Below are positions 6,667-23,327 of a stretch of DNA of 41,103 bases, one piece after another (position 1 is the first letter of the stretch; each line of letters begins with the position of its first letter). Under the pieces are notes generated by a model that had not been told where the DNA came from, made no database searches, and saw nothing but the letters and a program-made list of their open reading frames with translations. This DNA is from Candidatus Saccharimonadota bacterium. GTDB taxonomy: Bacteria > Patescibacteriota > Saccharimonadia > Saccharimonadales > Saccharimonadaceae. Location of the stretch: assembly GCA_017645955.1 (NCBI GenBank), contig JAGCNM010000022.1, forward strand, positions 1 through 41,103, in the 5' to 3' direction. The position numbers and the translations under genes are program-made.

Positions 6667-7275
6667 TTACGGTTCCAAAAGTACTTTTTTGATTGCATCA
6701 AATATCTCGTCTATAGTTCCAGATGCGTCAATTAGATTAAGATTGAATTCCTTGGCGATTTTCGGATAAGCGGCGTTGACTTTTTGTTGGAATTCATCGG
6801 CTTTCTTTTCGAAAGTCTCGGTAGCTTTACCGCGATTTTTTTGTCGTTGATAGCGAATGTCGTCTGGTACCGTCAAAATAAATCCGTAATCTGGATGGAC
6901 ATAGTTTTCCGGGAGCATCGATTTTGTTAATCGAATAATCCTTGAGCGAGAAATACCCTCGCCATATCCTTGATATGCAATCGTGGACCAATAGTTGCGC
7001 GCCGAAATTACGACGGCGCCACGCTTTAAAGCTGGTTCGGCAATTTTTTTCCATAGTTCAAGCCTCGAGGCCGTGAATAATAAGACGTTCGTAAGTGGTT
7101 CTAAATTATATCCCCGAATTAAAATCATATCATGTAAATCGTGAGCTTGCGGTAAGTCTCCGTCAGGTTCTTCCAACGTAACGACCTCTCTACCTTGTTG
7201 TTTGTAATACTTTTTTAGAAGCTCAACTTGAGTCGACTTCCCGGTCCCGTCTTGGCCTTCAATTACGATGTACAT
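6667..7275 (-). CDS. tmk: Thymidylate kinase
   Basis: The 202-residue protein is a dTMP kinase: it phosphorylates dTMP to dTDP with ATP. Visible are the P-loop EGQDGTGKST (residues 6-15), LEEPDGDLP in place of the common REPGGT, TASRLEL (family ASR), SARNYWST in the position of the DRY motif, and a late lid region RGKATETFEK. The N terminus is MYIVIEGQDGTGKST, so I start at 7275; the ATG shares its A with the tdk stop (TAATG), and GGAG lies upstream in the tdk end. The stop-start overlap with tdk makes a two-gene dTTP salvage operon. Confidence 0.9.
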   Translation of the reverse strand: MYIVIEGQDGTGKSTQVELLKKYYKQQGREVVTLEEPDGDLPQAHDLHDMILIRGYNLEPLTNVLLFTASRLELWKKIAEPALKRGAVVISARNYWSTIAYQGYGEGISRSRIIRLTKSMLPENYVHPDYGFILTVPDDIRYQRQKNRGKATETFEKKADEFQQKVNAAYPKIAKEFNLNLIDASGTIDEIFDAIKKVLLEP

Positions 7276-7862
7276 TACTTTTTCTCCAGATATTTTTCGT
7301 AACAAGCCGGGCATAAGGCGCGGTATTCGATTTTACTTTTACCGTCATCGATTAAAATATCTGGGCCATCAGTGACTAATTTGTCGTCTAGGAATCGACA
7401 ATTTAGAGTGGCCTTATGGCCACATTCGCAAATGGTTTTGATTTCTTCAATAATGTGAGCAATTTGTAAAAGTCTAGTTGCGCCTTCGAACCCACCGTCT
7501 TTTTGGCGGAAGTTAAGGCGAAGACCATAGGCCATTACCGGAATGTTGAGTTTAATCGTAATCATCATTAGTTGATCGGCCTGTTCGGGGGTTAAAAATT
7601 GGGCTTCATCGACTAATACACACTGGACATCCTTATAGTTTTTTAAAACTTCTTTAAAGATATCTGTCTTTTTGTCGAAACAGAAATTCGTTTCACGCTC
7701 GGGACCAATACGAGTTAAAAGTTTTGTGCCATTTTTAGTGTCGGTTTTTGGTTTGATCACGCAAACTTTATGACCACGTTCTTCATAATTAAACGCAACT
7801 TGTAAGAGCTGCATTGTCTTACCACACCCCATTGCGCCATATCTAAAATATAGTTTCGCCAT
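7275..7862 (-). CDS. tdk: Thymidine kinase
   Basis: The 195-residue protein is a type II thymidine kinase, converting thymidine to dTMP. It has the P-loop GAMGCGKT (residues 9-16, with C where S is usual), the VDEAQFL Walker B motif (about 85-91), the lasso AYGLRLNFRQKDGG and four zinc-site cysteines (CECG and CPAC). I choose ATG 7862 (MAKLYFRYGAM) over the in-frame ATG 18 nt upstream, because a TATAAT box at 7869-7874 places the transcription start exactly on 7862, and because the family normally begins only a few residues before the P-loop. The gene is divergent from ung and separated from it by a large palindrome. Confidence 0.92.
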   Translation of the reverse strand: MAKLYFRYGAMGCGKTMQLLQVAFNYEERGHKVCVIKPKTDTKNGTKLLTRIGPERETNFCFDKKTDIFKEVLKNYKDVQCVLVDEAQFLTPEQADQLMMITIKLNIPVMAYGLRLNFRQKDGGFEGATRLLQIAHIIEEIKTICECGHKATLNCRFLDDKLVTDGPDILIDDGKSKIEYRALCPACYEKYLEKK

Positions 7863-7868
7863 GTCTTG

Positions 7869-7874
7869 ATTATA
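7869..7874 (-). promoter_or_regulatory. Leaderless-type promoter of tdk
   Basis: TATAAT on the minus strand, 6 nt before ATG 7862. It forms the outermost part of the left arm of the tdk/ung palindrome. A second TATAAT lies 15 nt further upstream in the same arm. Confidence 0.6.
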
Positions 7875-8034
7875 GTTCATATTATTATATTTCTCAACGT
7901 TGAAACTTCGCCGTATAAAAATTACAACAGGTCAGGCGGGCTCGAACCTGTATTTCAGTACAGGATTCTCGCCCGTGACTGTTGTAATTTTTATCGGGCA
8001 GTTTCAAAATGTTTCGAAATATAATAATATGAAC

Positions 8035-8040
8035 TATAAT
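8035..8040 (+). promoter_or_regulatory. Leaderless-type promoter of ung
   Basis: TATAAT followed by 6 nt (AAATCT) and ATG 8047. It is the mirror image of the tdk promoter, at the end of the right arm of the palindrome. A further TATAAT is at 8020-8025. Confidence 0.6.
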
Positions 8041-8046
8041 AAATCT

Positions 8047-8694
8047 ATGCATGAGAGTTGGAGATCTTTCTTAAAGGCGGAATTTGAGAAGCCGTATTTT
8101 AAAGAGTTGTCAGAGTTTTTACATCATGAATATGAAACTAAAACAATTTATCCTAAAAAGGGTTTAGTTTTTCGAGCGTTTGCGACAGATTTAAATGATG
8201 TCAAGGTTGTTATTTTAGGGCAGGATCCGTATCATACGCCGGGAGCGGCGGAAGGTCTAGCGTTCTCAGTACCTAATTCGCAACCGATTCCGCCGTCTTT
8301 AATAAATATATATAAGGAAATTGATGACGATATTGGACACCATGAAAACCCACGCGGAAGTTTAGTTAATTGGCAAAAACAAGGAGTGTTATTATTAAAC
8401 ACTGTTTTAACAGTTGAAGCGCATAAGCCGAAATCGCATTCTGGAAAAGGTTGGGAGACTTTTACGACTGAAGTAATAAAATATTTAAATGAAGTACGTC
8501 CGCATTTAGTTTTTATTCTTTGGGGACGAGACGCAAGGAATAAAAAAGCATTAATCGACACTTCGAAACATTTAGTTTTAGAATCGGCACACCCTTCACC
8601 GCTATCGGCTCATGCGGGATTTTTTGGTAGTAAACCGTTTTCGAAATGTAATCAGTTTTTGGAAGAAAACGGCTTAAAGCCAATTGTATGGTAA
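8047..8694 (+). CDS. ung: Uracil-DNA glycosylase (family 1)
   Basis: The 215-residue enzyme removes uracil from DNA, the first step of base excision repair. Motif A is VVILGQDPYH (residues 54-63, catalytic Asp60), followed by GLAFSVP, VLLLNTVLTVE (uracil-binding Asn), FILWGRDA and the C-terminal HPSPLSAHAGFFGSKPFSKCN with the catalytic His. I start at ATG 8047 (MHESWRSF), 6 nt after a TATAAT box; longer in-frame extensions would read through the palindrome and are unlike the family. With tdk, tmk and dCMP deaminase it forms a small group of genes balancing dUMP and dTTP and repairing dU in DNA. Confidence 0.94.
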   Translation: MHESWRSFLKAEFEKPYFKELSEFLHHEYETKTIYPKKGLVFRAFATDLNDVKVVILGQDPYHTPGAAEGLAFSVPNSQPIPPSLINIYKEIDDDIGHHENPRGSLVNWQKQGVLLLNTVLTVEAHKPKSHSGKGWETFTTEVIKYLNEVRPHLVFILWGRDARNKKALIDTSKHLVLESAHPSPLSAHAGFFGSKPFSKCNQFLEENGLKPIVW

Positions 8695-12972: not shown

Positions 12973-13762
12973 CGCTCATTGCCATCTCCACGACCGAGAG
13001 TTTTTCACGGAAAAGCAAGCCGAGGAGATGATAAAGCGAGCTGATAAAGCCGGAGTTAAAAAAATCATTTGTATTGGGACTTCACACGAAGATTCATTAG
13101 CGGCGCGTGAGTTTGCTTTGGCTCATAAAAATGTTTATTGGACTTACGGAGTACATCCCGAAGGAGCTACAAGTTTATCTCGCTCGGGGGCGCGTCCGGC
13201 CGGCCCGTCGCCACGGGCGGCCGGCGCTAATCCTCGCGCTGCCGCGCTCCGGGTTCCCCTTCGCCGAGACAAACTTGTAGCTATTGGGGAAGTCGGCCTA
13301 GATTACCACTATGAGAATTATAATCGCGAGGCACAGATTAAGTTGTTCGAAAAGATGCTACAGCTTGCGACTATGAATGATTTACCGGTTTCATTCCATG
13401 TTCGCGAAGCTTTCGAAGATTTTTTTGCAGTTATAAGAAACTTTCCAAAAGTACGAGGCATAGTTCATTCTTTTACAGATAGTAAGAAAGTTTTGAAACA
13501 TATTTTAAACGAAACAGATTTTTATGTCGGCGTAAATGGACTAGCAACTTATTCTACTTTGCCAACTCCGCCACTAGAGCGGATTCTACTCGAGACGGAT
13601 GCGCCCTTTTTAGCCCCAACCCCACATCGTGGAGAGACTAACGAACCGGCATATATTGCAGATATTGCAAGTTGGTTAGCTACGAAGTTAGAGATACCGG
13701 TAGATGATATAGCTAAGACAACAACAGACAACGCAAATAATCTGTTTAGATTGACTAATTAA
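12962..13762 (+). CDS. TatD family metal-dependent hydrolase with in-frame palindromic insertion
   Basis: The 266-residue protein is a TatD-type DNase/hydrolase. Metal-site motifs are visible: [10 protein letters not shown] at the N terminus, WTYGVHPEG, VAIGEVGLDYH, PVSFHVRE, VHSFTD and LLETDAPFLAP. I start at GTG 12962, which overlaps the last 11 nt of typA and gives the family N terminus directly; a TTG 30 nt upstream is possible. Residues about 68-107, between GVHPEG and KLVAIGE, are encoded by a palindromic element and read TSLSRSG...RAAALR...DK, a low-complexity Arg/Ala/Pro-rich stretch unlike the helix normally found there. Metal ligands on both sides are intact. Confidence 0.9.
   Translation: MLIDAHCHLHDREFFTEKQAEEMIKRADKAGVKKIICIGTSHEDSLAAREFALAHKNVYWTYGVHPEGATSLSRSGARPAGPSPRAAGANPRAAALRVPLRRDKLVAIGEVGLDYHYENYNREAQIKLFEKMLQLATMNDLPVSFHVREAFEDFFAVIRNFPKVRGIVHSFTDSKKVLKHILNETDFYVGVNGLATYSTLPTPPLERILLETDAPFLAPTPHRGETNEPAYIADIASWLATKLEIPVDDIAKTTTDNANNLFRLTN
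13165..13282. repeat. In-gene palindromic element 2 (in the tatD-like gene)
   Basis: Outer arms 13165-13182 (AGCTACAAGTTTATCTCG) and 13265-13282 are inverted repeats with 17 of 18 positions paired. The core hairpin is CCCGT-CGCC-ACGGG at 13204-13217, extended by CCGGCCG/CGGCCGG. Positions 13224-13251 share 27 of 28 bases with the cysteine desulfurase copy and are read in the same frame in both genes (ANPRAAALR here). The right arm encodes KLVA of the conserved KLVAIGE motif, so the right arm looks native and the left arm looks like its inverted copy. Confidence 0.9.
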
Positions 13763-16217: not shown

Positions 16218-17459
16218 ATGATATATCTTGATCATGCGGCTGCGACACCAGTCAATGAGAAGGTTCTAAAAGCAATGGAGCCTTATTTTTCGATTGATTT
16301 TTTTAATCCGTCAGCGGCGTATTTACCGGCGAAAAAGGTGGCACATGATTACGAGGAAGCTAAGGGCGTGATTGCGCACGCGATAGGAGCCAAAGCGTCC
16401 GATCTTGTTATTACTGCCGGAGCGACTGAAGCGAATAATCTTGCGTTTACAATCCTAATAGACGGACAAATGTCCCACTCGGCGCCGCGTCGCTCGCGCC
16501 TGTCGCCACAGGGCGAGCGCGCTAATTCTCGCGCTGCCGCGCTCCGAAATGCGCCGAGTCGGGACATTTGCTCCGTCTTATATCTTGCAACCGAGCATGA
16601 TTCGGTGAGGCGAGTGGCGGAGCAGTATGGCGGGACGGTGATTAAAGTTTTACCGTCGGGGTTGATTGATTTGGAAGATTTAAGAAGTAAGATCACGGAT
16701 GAGACGCAGTTAATTTCAGTTTCGCTAGCTAATAATGAGCTTGGGACGATACAGCCGATGGCGGAAATTGCTGGGATTATCCGCGAAGCTAAGCTAGATC
16801 GAATGAAACGCGGAATTAAAACACAGTTATTGTTACATTCTGACGCATCGCAAGCCTTGAATTTATTGGATATAAATGTCGCGAGACTTGGGATTGATTT
16901 GTTGACTTTAAACGCGGCGAAGGTTTACGGCCCGAAGGGGGTCGGAGCATTATATGTTTCGCACGAAGCGAGATTAAAACCGTTAACTTATGGTGGTGGA
17001 CAGGAAAATGGACTAAGGAGTGGAACTGAAAACGTTCCGGGAGTCATCGGGTTTTCTAAAGCAGTTGAGCTTGCGAAGGAACATTTGAACGGGAATCGGA
17101 AAAAATATGCTAGCTGGCGAAAGATTTTACTGACCGAATTACAGGGGTACGAATTAATCAACAAAAAGCACTCGCTTGACAATTTTGTTGTTTTATGCTA
17201 TAATGGTATAGATGCGGAACGATTAGTGTTCCTTCTTGAAGAAAAGGGGGTCTACGTAGCGACTGGAGCGGCCTGCGCTGCTTCTAAAGGCGAAAAATCA
17301 CACGTTTTAAAGGCGATTGGGCTAACTGACGAACAAATCGCGGGTTCGTTAAGGATTACATTCGGCGAGACGAACGACGAAAAACAAATACATGAAGCTG
17401 CTAAGATTATTAACGACGTAGTTAAAACAGAGTGCGCTAGAATTACTGCGTGTTCTTAG
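16218..17459 (+). CDS. iscS: Cysteine desulfurase (NifS/IscS type) with in-frame palindromic insertion
   Basis: The 413-residue PLP enzyme should take sulfur from cysteine for tRNA thiolation or iron-sulfur clusters. Visible are YLDHAAATPV at the N terminus, ITAGATEANN, the PLP region SDASQALN, the Schiff-base lysine in NAAKVYGPKG (Lys235) and the active-site loop ATGAACAASKG (Cys353). Residues about 82-120, between FTILI and VLYLATEHDSV, are an extra segment encoded by a palindromic element. mnmA, which needs such a sulfur donor, is 4.5 kb away. The 3' end overlaps the convergent surface protein gene by 17 nt. Whether it is NifS-like or IscS-like in role is not decided here. Confidence 0.92.
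   Translation: MIYLDHAAATPVNEKVLKAMEPYFSIDFFNPSAAYLPAKKVAHDYEEAKGVIAHAIGAKASDLVITAGATEANNLAFTILIDGQMSHSAPRRSRLSPQGERANSRAAALRNAPSRDICSVLYLATEHDSVRRVAEQYGGTVIKVLPSGLIDLEDLRSKITDETQLISVSLANNELGTIQPMAEIAGIIREAKLDRMKRGIKTQLLLHSDASQALNLLDINVARLGIDLLTLNAAKVYGPKGVGALYVSHEARLKPLTYGGGQENGLRSGTENVPGVIGFSKAVELAKEHLNGNRKKYASWRKILLTELQGYELINKKHSLDNFVVLCYNGIDAERLVFLLEEKGVYVATGAACAASKGEKSHVLKAIGLTDEQIAGSLRITFGETNDEKQIHEAAKIINDVVKTECARITACS
16461..16577. repeat. In-gene palindromic element 3 (in the cysteine desulfurase gene)
   Basis: Outer arms 16461-16485 and 16551-16577 pair over 25 positions with two single-base bulges. The core is CCTGT-CGCC-ACAGG at 16499-16512, flanked by CGCTCGC and GCGAGCG. Positions 16519-16546 share 27 of 28 bases with element 2 and are read in the same frame (ANSRAAALR). 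The 117 bp add about 39 residues with no stop codon. Confidence 0.9.
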
Positions 17460-22019: not shown

Positions 22020-23327
22020 ATGAAAACAGTTTACGTCGGTATGAGCGGAGGGGTAGATTCCTCAGTTTCGGCCTTGCTTTTAAAAGAACAGGGTTATAAT
22101 GTTGTCGGCGTTTACATGAAGAATTGGTCGCGGGATTTACCTGGCATGAAGTGTCCATGGGCGGAAGATTTGGCTGATGCAAAAAGAGTCGCCGTTAAGC
22201 TCGGAATTCCGTTTGAGGTCTGGGATTTTGAAGAGGATTATCGCAAAAAAGTCGTAGAATACATGCTTGACGAATTTAAAAAAGGGAATACACCTAATCC
22301 CGATATTATGTGTAATCAGGAAATTAAGTTTAAACTGTTTTATGAAAAAGCGATGGAAAGAGGGGCTGATTTTATCGCCACTGGACACTACGCGAGAGCA
22401 ATACCTTTTTCGCTCGCTTCCTCGCTCGCGCCCGTCGTCACGGGGCTCGCTTCGGCGATTGCTCCCGTTGTCGCAAATGCTCGCGAAAAAGGCATTGTTC
22501 TCGCATGTACCACGGATAAAGACTTGGGGCAAAACTTTACGCTTCAGAATGAACAGGTCTCAAGCCCACTCTTGTTTAGGGCCAAGGATGAGAATAAGGA
22601 TCAGACGTATTTTTTGTATAGGATTTCGGAAGAGGCGCTTTCTCATACAATTTTTCCGATTGGCGAGATGAAAAAGCCTGAAGTAAAGAAGTTAGCGAAA
22701 GAAAAAGGTTTGCACAATGCTTATAAGAAGGAGTCGATGGGAGTATGTTTTGTCGGTGAGGTTGGGATGAAGGATTTTTTGAAGGAATACATCGATATTA
22801 AACCGGGAGAGATTCGCGAAATTGAGAGTGAAAAGGTTTTAGGTTATCATGAGGGCGCAGTGTTTTATACCATCGGACAAAGACATGGCTTATATCTTAA
22901 TGGTGAAAAAGGAGTCGTAAACGACGGAATGCCGTATTATGTGGTTAAAAAAGACGTAGATAAAAATATCGTTTATGTTTCGAAAAACTTAAACGATGAA
23001 AATTTGTGGACCGATGAATTAAGACTAAAAGACGTCTTCATGAGGCAATTCGAATACATATCGAGGGAGCTTACGGAGGTTACGACCGAGTATGAGGGCG
23101 CTCGCCCCGTAACGACGGGCGCGAGCGACCCGTCTCCCGAGATATCGTATTCGAAGTTGCCTTTAAAACAAGTATTGGTTCGTTTGCGACATCGGGCGCC
23201 TTTAGTTCCGGCGAAGTTTGATGGGGAAACGCTTTATTTCAAGAATAAAATAAAGCGCCCTGCATCTGGGCAGAGCGCTGTGATATATGATGGTGAAATT
23301 TGCCTTGGTGGCGGGATAATCGTTTAG
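22020..23327 (+). CDS. mnmA: tRNA-specific 2-thiouridylase MnmA with two in-frame palindromic insertions
   Basis: The 435-residue enzyme thiolates U34 of Lys, Glu and Gln tRNAs, taking sulfur that a cysteine desulfurase mobilises. The PP-loop is GMSGGVDSS (residues 7-15); the catalytic cysteines are in NPDIMCNQEIKF and MGVCFVGE; GHYAR, DQTYFLYR and the C-terminal SGQSAVIYDGE..LGGG are all present. It is longer than the usual 350-380 residues because of two palindromic elements: residues about 125-162 (after GHYAR, encoding a hydrophobic stretch FSLASSLAPVVTGLASAIAP) and 342-381 (before KLPLKQVLVRLRHR). All catalytic motifs lie outside the inserts, so the enzyme is probably active. Confidence 0.93.
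   Translation: MKTVYVGMSGGVDSSVSALLLKEQGYNVVGVYMKNWSRDLPGMKCPWAEDLADAKRVAVKLGIPFEVWDFEEDYRKKVVEYMLDEFKKGNTPNPDIMCNQEIKFKLFYEKAMERGADFIATGHYARAIPFSLASSLAPVVTGLASAIAPVVANAREKGIVLACTTDKDLGQNFTLQNEQVSSPLLFRAKDENKDQTYFLYRISEEALSHTIFPIGEMKKPEVKKLAKEKGLHNAYKKESMGVCFVGEVGMKDFLKEYIDIKPGEIREIESEKVLGYHEGAVFYTIGQRHGLYLNGEKGVVNDGMPYYVVKKDVDKNIVYVSKNLNDENLWTDELRLKDVFMRQFEYISRELTEVTTEYEGARPVTTGASDPSPEISYSKLPLKQVLVRLRHRAPLVPAKFDGETLYFKNKIKRPASGQSAVIYDGEICLGGGIIV
22392..22504. repeat. In-gene palindromic element 4 (first copy in mnmA)
   Basis: Outer arms 22392-22413 and 22483-22504 are inverted repeats with 20 of 22 positions paired (right arm reverse complement begins GCGAGAACAATGCC). The core is CCCGT-CGTC-ACGGG at 22431-22444, preceded by CTCGCTCGCG and followed by GCTCGCT. 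AAATGCTCGCG follows, related to the AATYCTCGCG of elements 2 and 3. The left arm encodes ARA of the conserved GHYAR motif, so here the left arm looks native and the right arm copied. Confidence 0.9.
23043..23162. repeat. In-gene palindromic element 5 (second copy in mnmA)
   Basis: Outer arms 23043-23069 and 23134-23162 pair almost throughout, with three short bulges (shared blocks AGGCAA, TTCGAATAC, ATATC, GAGGGAG or their complements). The core CCCGT-AACG-ACGGG is at 23106-23119, inside a longer stem made from CGCTCGC and GCGAGCG; the loop shows that this copy lies in the opposite orientation (CGTT on the minus strand). It is read in frame without stops. Confidence 0.88.

Follow-up and report, generated by a model that had tools for sequence, protein, structure and literature searches.

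The 172-bp palindrome between the thymidine kinase gene tdk and the uracil-DNA glycosylase gene ung in a ruminant-gut Saccharibacterium is a copy of a dispersed palindromic element, here called family A, and it lies where many relatives have a short symmetric promoter. Insertion of this genus-specific, mobile-type element into a promoter shared by tdk and ung probably duplicated and split that promoter. Before insertion, one symmetric promoter would have served both genes; afterwards each gene would have had a private TATAAT at 6-nt distance from its ATG, and the end of the element may have furnished a -35 box for tdk. The window is the whole stretch of DNA analysed, 41,103 nucleotides long; G000 is the genome holding it, other G codes are genomes, L codes are loci and C codes are contigs of G000.

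The palindrome and its element family

The geometry of the palindrome is clear (Table 1). The sequence-only reading had described a nested palindrome whose outer arms each run to the last base of a TATAAT lying 6 nt upstream of an ATG, and both points are borne out. The outer arms are perfect 25-bp complements, and pairing over 65-nt arms is 80%. The RNA fold of the palindrome has -88 kcal/mol (z -14.7) and the DNA fold -56 kcal/mol (z -15.0), with 0/200 shuffles as good in either case. In a gapped-palindrome scan it gave the top score in 399 kb of genus DNA (44.5); maxima in 14 randomised loci were 10–14. An in-frame ATG at 8029, upstream of the ung start, is not conserved in relatives, unlike the MHES.. 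start.

Table 1. Features of the tdk–ung region in window coordinates
Feature	Position	Strand	Detail
tdk, thymidine kinase	7275..7862	-	PF00265, 4e-31
tdk start codon	7860..7862	-	ATG
Nested palindrome, entire	7869..8040	.	between tdk and ung
Left outer arm	7869..7893	.	ATTATAGTTCATATTATTATATTTC; ~21 nt locus-specific + TTTC common to many copies
tdk -10 box TATAAT	7869..7874	-	6 nt before ATG
tdk -35-like TTGAGA	7892..7897	-	at the element's end, 17-bp spacing
Family-A palindromic element proper	7894..8015	-	ends by eye against other copies
Family-A hairpin core	7909..8000	-	model R1, 96.2–96.3 bits, E 8.9e-22 (circular, see text)
Asymmetric loop ACTGAAAT	7952..7959	-	conserved; sets element orientation
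Right outer arm	8016..8040	.	GAAATATAATAATATGAACTATAAT
Second TATAAT within right arm	8020..8025	+	mirrored in left arm
ung -10 box TATAAT	8035..8040	+	6 nt before ATG
ung start codon	8047..8049	+	MHES.. start kept in relatives
ung, uracil-DNA glycosylase	8047..8694	+	PF03167, 2e-19

The palindrome belongs to family A by its match to model R1 and by plain DNA similarity to another copy (88% over 66 nt); R1 was built from five G000 copies including this one, which makes its score for those five circular. Searching G000 by model and by selected stretches yielded four further strong copies, on C55, C5, C1 and C32. Plain DNA similarity to the tdk–ung copy is by itself enough to recover all four, the remaining matches being 82% over 74 nt, 73% over 126 nt and 77% over 67 nt. 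One of the other copies lies in a membrane-protein-like frame and the rest at the 3' ends of genes reading as ndk, ileS and rplA, all names being read from translations without a family search. The core spans 93 model positions (~92 nt) and the whole element ~122 nt, with minus-strand ends placed by eye at TTTC/GAAACATT.. and ..ACGTTGA/GAAA. All G000 copies have one core and the invariant loop, and their outer arms differ.

Covariation supports the paired structure. Among 28 family-A copies, 91.1% of helix cells are paired and two-sided changes occur in 32 of 36 pairs, in an alignment fitted to the model, which favours structure; none of 500 shuffles paired as highly, and slid controls reached 33–45%. 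The 988 helix cells comprise 880 Watson-Crick pairs, 20 G-U pairs and 12 A-C mismatches. Selection at the RNA level should favour G-U well over A-C. Because G-U pairs are so little above A-C mismatches here, conservation of the structure at the DNA level is likelier than at the RNA level, and an RNA element was dropped as a candidate for its few G-U pairs.

The same counts bear on the idea, raised in the sequence-only reading, of a strong RNA hairpin. That the palindrome is a transcribed hairpin or terminator on one of the two mRNAs is hardly credible despite its very stable RNA fold: both -10 boxes lie at its outer edges and are directed away from it, G-U is rare in the helix, a terminator scan found no terminator-like site, and Rfam has no match within the window. 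The hairpin would lie outside both predicted mRNAs, and its direct effect would be the separation of two promoters rather than an RNA structure.

Family A is widespread within a narrow range. The R1 search found it in 20 of 40 sampled genomes of the rumen Saccharibacteria genus, where Ca. Nanosyncoccus alces is among the close relatives of G000 (genus search); under stricter filters it appears in 1 of 122 genera of the order, that of G000. Open frames hold 13 of 33 copies. The eight in-frame hosts examined are a P-type ATPase, an IleRS-type tRNA synthetase, FemAB, TruB, Obg, LepA, TsaD and CTP synthase, and a single peptide frame is common to 7 of the 8 translated copies. In-frame loci (L129–L132, L139, L141, L148 and L154) mostly encode ..GHGR..GTEIPGR.RLTRC... 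The ileS-like open reading frame of G000 (L005:3-1457, C1) contains a low-complexity insert of its own, ..FEGDPERGSARISAETPVATGVSDAPREGNISSS.., close to where the L132 ileS has its family-A element. No candidate for an enzyme mobilising family A was found; Y1 transposase (PF01797) is absent from G000 and present in 1 of 40 genus genomes and 5 of 14 control genomes.

The window also holds GC-rich, in-frame palindromes of another family, B, at 13146-13264, 16477-16559, 22392-22499 and 23043-23164. Their hosts are tatD, a class-V aminotransferase (cysteine desulfurase-like) and mnmA (two sites), and the same mnmA loops bear inserts in several other species. The sequence-only reading had likened the tdk–ung palindrome to these in-gene elements and proposed scoring it with their covariance model. 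The likeness stands for layout and falls for sequence family: model R2 of family B, which reaches 106 bits on its own copies, gave no match to 7869-8040 with filters off and a threshold as lax as E = 10. This null result rules the palindrome out as a family-B copy. The words ATTCTCGC and CCTGTA/TACAGG, taken there as a shared family mark, do not serve as one, since those bases vary between true relatives.

A short symmetric promoter in relatives and its probable splitting

The tdk–ung spacer is short and symmetric in many relatives. Among 72 divergent tdk–ung pairs (including a few loci from genomes in two collections), 40 have a spacer of at most 23 nt. Every one of these 40 carries TGnTATAAT on each strand, and 39 are palindromic, with no more than one mismatched pair. 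The commonest form is 14 nt long, CAT-GCTATAATTATAGC-ATG, with each -10 box 6 nt from its own ATG. The usual promoter is a 20–24-bp palindrome of the CATGCTATAATTATAGCATG type with overlapping extended -10 boxes, and 14–18 nt separate the two start codons. Because the -10 box lies 6 nt from the ATG, this short promoter apparently gives leaderless tdk and ung transcripts. Comparisons of spacers beyond those counted were mostly by eye, and the nearest relatives compared have ~88–89% identity in Ung protein. Of the two outcomes that the sequence-only reading named as refuting it, one came about, in that the in-gene model fails at this locus; the other did not, the spacers of relatives being mostly palindromic themselves.

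The pattern is probably used by other gene pairs too, because 8 of 10 genomes contain it, each at 1–3 places, and the reversed control has none. Two further CATNNTATAATTATANNATG sites, at G000:C31:3503-3522 and G000:C35:10415-10434, are likely minimal two-way promoters.

The perfect 14-nt symmetric form occurs in G071, the sister of G000 (100/100 on SecA), and the 14-nt symmetric form also in the near relative G118. Given the sister's perfect form, a single promoter most likely served both tdk and ung before insertion, so that insertion need not have created the identity of their -10 boxes. The sequence-only reading held that insertion had copied one gene's promoter and pointed the copy at the other gene; this is not the simplest reading, since G071 and 40 of 72 pairs already share a symmetric -10.

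In G000, TATAAT is still 6 nt from both ATGs, the TG of the extended -10 no longer adjoins, and 160 bp now separate the -10 boxes of the two genes; no overlapping pair of -10 boxes on opposite strands lies between its tdk and ung. The clearest picture of what appears to be promoter duplication is G149, where a different element, E, is flanked on each side by a copy of the short promoter: CATGCTATAATTATATCACG, E, CGTGTTATAATACTACTATG. The arms in G000 are less simple. Some 14 bp between each -10 box and the element end are absent from the sister's 14-nt promoter, so pure duplication of that promoter would require additional steps.

This excess bears on a different starting point, in which the G000 spacer was ~33 nt long and asymmetric with a good -10 box for one gene only, and an inverted copy carried TATAAT across to the other. 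The G000 arm, with ~21 locus-specific nt, agrees in length with inverted flank copies at other sites and is longer than a 14-nt promoter can supply, and asymmetric spacers of 38–57 nt do occur in other members of the genus. We nevertheless consider it clearly unlikely, given the symmetric forms in G071 and G118. In addition, almost every spacer above 23 nt has the ung TATAAT 6 nt from the ATG, so a good -10 box was very likely present for each gene beforehand.

Splitting of a shared promoter might also have brought tdk a new upstream box. TTGAGA-17-TATAAT upstream of tdk is an 11/12 match, and the box recurs in G171, with a spacing of 17 bp, and in G110, with one of 16 bp (counted by eye). Most of the element is gone from G110, yet its TTGAGA end remains. 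This retention hints that the element-borne box may be used as the tdk -35.

Inverted arms and the history of the insertion

The sequence-only reading had invoked an inserted dispersed element with an inverted-flank mechanism, and this is supported by the five strong copies, the arm scores and orthologues of mnmA. Outside the conserved ends, nearly every family-A copy is bounded by an inverted repeat peculiar to it, some 12–30 nt long in most cases. Arms match their own partner with a median score of 13.5; cross-copy matches have a median of 6 and a 95th percentile of 8.5. A few diverged copies, L143 and L146 among them, have arm scores within this background.

The second mnmA site offers both filled and empty states. 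Its left flank is conserved LKD.F.R coding sequence, its right arm repeats the host species' own codons in inverted orientation (e.g. AAGGATGTTTTCCTTCG / CGAAGGGAAACATCCTT in L105), and orthologues L102, L120 and L124 have no insert there. These codons show that the inverted arm at this site was copied from one flank of the target. Inserts at this site are of family B, or related to that family, and not of family A, for which target-derived inverted arms are supported by analogy. Insertion would thereby leave the element bounded by inverted repeats copied from its target. Such copies probably arise by fold-back priming: the 3' end of the hairpin would fold back and prime copying of the adjacent flank, and synthesis would then return to the other flank. 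Across the copies compared, arms are inverted, not direct; at tdk–ung the target itself was likely palindromic, which makes direct and inverted copies look alike.

Dating the insertion is a separate matter. Apparent traces of the same family-A insertion occur in G171, G110 and G129, which are not sisters of G000. Position and orientation are the same in G000 and G171, and G000, G171 and G110 all have ATTATA[G/A]TTCAT.. beside the same end of the element. Three of the first 15 arm pairs differ between G171 and G000, all compensated on the other arm (by eye), and the G171 core has decayed to 28.9 bits vs 96.2 for G000 (a circular score, as noted above). Compensated arms with a decayed core fit either arm homogenisation or separate insertions.

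These shared features speak for an old insertion common to G000, G171, G110 and G129 and lost precisely elsewhere; the promoter copies are also direct repeats, which would allow deletion between them. Such a history seems somewhat unlikely. SecA and ung trees, in which repeat insertion, transfer and loss are not separable, group G000 with species that have an empty site and a perfect short promoter, so losses would have had to restore the exact short consensus in these tree neighbours. Other palindromes in the spacer of G149, L055 and probably G022 also make repeat hits plausible. An old insertion would concern date only and could be compatible with the splitting of a shared promoter.

Arms that remain complementary in both G000 and G171, though the G171 core has decayed, together with the position in a divergent promoter, could also point to a selected regulatory site of tdk and ung, such as the operator of a dimeric regulator or a cruciform switch. 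This is very improbable, as the same core stands beside or inside unrelated genes and is absent from most relatives with divergent tdk and ung.

With palindromes of more than one kind in it, the tdk–ung spacer appears to be a repeated target of several element families. Relatives also carry, near ung, no fewer than three additional palindrome core families whose arms are locus-specific (L054:4243-4380, L054:5673-5804; L058:9082, L081:6254, L082:3650; L068:5603, L076:5637). The ung of G002, G008, G021 and G030 matches in two pieces with a break at about residues 99–107, which suggests in-gene insertions.

Relation to known systems

Our literature searches found no report of palindromic elements in Saccharibacteria, nor, among the papers listed, of intragenic palindromes in candidate phyla. 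We tentatively propose, with somewhat less than even confidence, that these are undescribed mobile palindromes of Saccharibacteria, hairpin-primed and producing inverted target duplications, which insert in-frame in essential genes and have repeatedly split the tdk–ung promoter. Inverted target duplication, if general, would be insertion chemistry unlike ordinary transposition. The locus joins three things rarely found together, namely a tiny shared promoter, palindromes with an inverted target copy and repeated hits by several families, and it offers natural before/after pairs for the effects of splitting a shared promoter.

Rickettsia palindromic elements (RPE) are ~150 bp long, form several families and are dispersed in-frame in unrelated genes (PMC10969869). 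Family A is likewise palindromic, dispersed and in-frame in genes at the family level, the tdk–ung copy being intergenic; it belongs to another phylum, and the likeness was judged by published description. To our knowledge, locus-specific inverted arms copied from the target have not been reported for RPE.

REPs are 20–40 bp long and both intergenic and intragenic, those with a GTAG tag being associated with RAYT transposases (PMC3733652). Family A shares short palindromic repeats in both settings. Membership is ruled out by size (a core of ~92 nt), by the missing tag (no GTAG/CGTC conserved at family-A ends, by eye) and by the lack of a Y1 transposase in G000. Hairpins like those of integron attC sites or IS200 were dropped as well, because matching ends were not seen and there is no transposase.

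Correia elements and other promoter-bearing MITEs are small, non-coding and able to supply promoter parts (PMC10969869). The tdk–ung element resembles them as a small non-coding element near a gene start with possible promoter parts. MITEs have their own terminal inverted repeats and direct target duplications; in contrast, the outer inverted repeats of the tdk–ung element appear to be target-derived.

Long inverted repeats in conserved genes of Nematomorpha mitochondria have arms that evolve in concert, for which homogenisation has been proposed (PMC6649704). They differ in having no dispersed core element, and conserved residues are encoded by both arms. Breaks in yeast DNA yield fold-back templated inverted duplications, most of them ~5–34 bp, by hairpin-primed synthesis (PMC11724301). 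The short inverted flank copies are alike, but the yeast process is eukaryotic end-joining and involves no mobile element (PMC11724301).

Bidirectional promoters of E. coli share a symmetric -10, with a start spacing of 18 bp commonest and 10 and 23 bp common (PMC12825309). The usual tdk–ung spacer of relatives is similar, with a shared symmetric -10 and predicted starts 15–19 bp apart; it differs in that its starts are apparently leaderless and the start codons lie within the palindrome.
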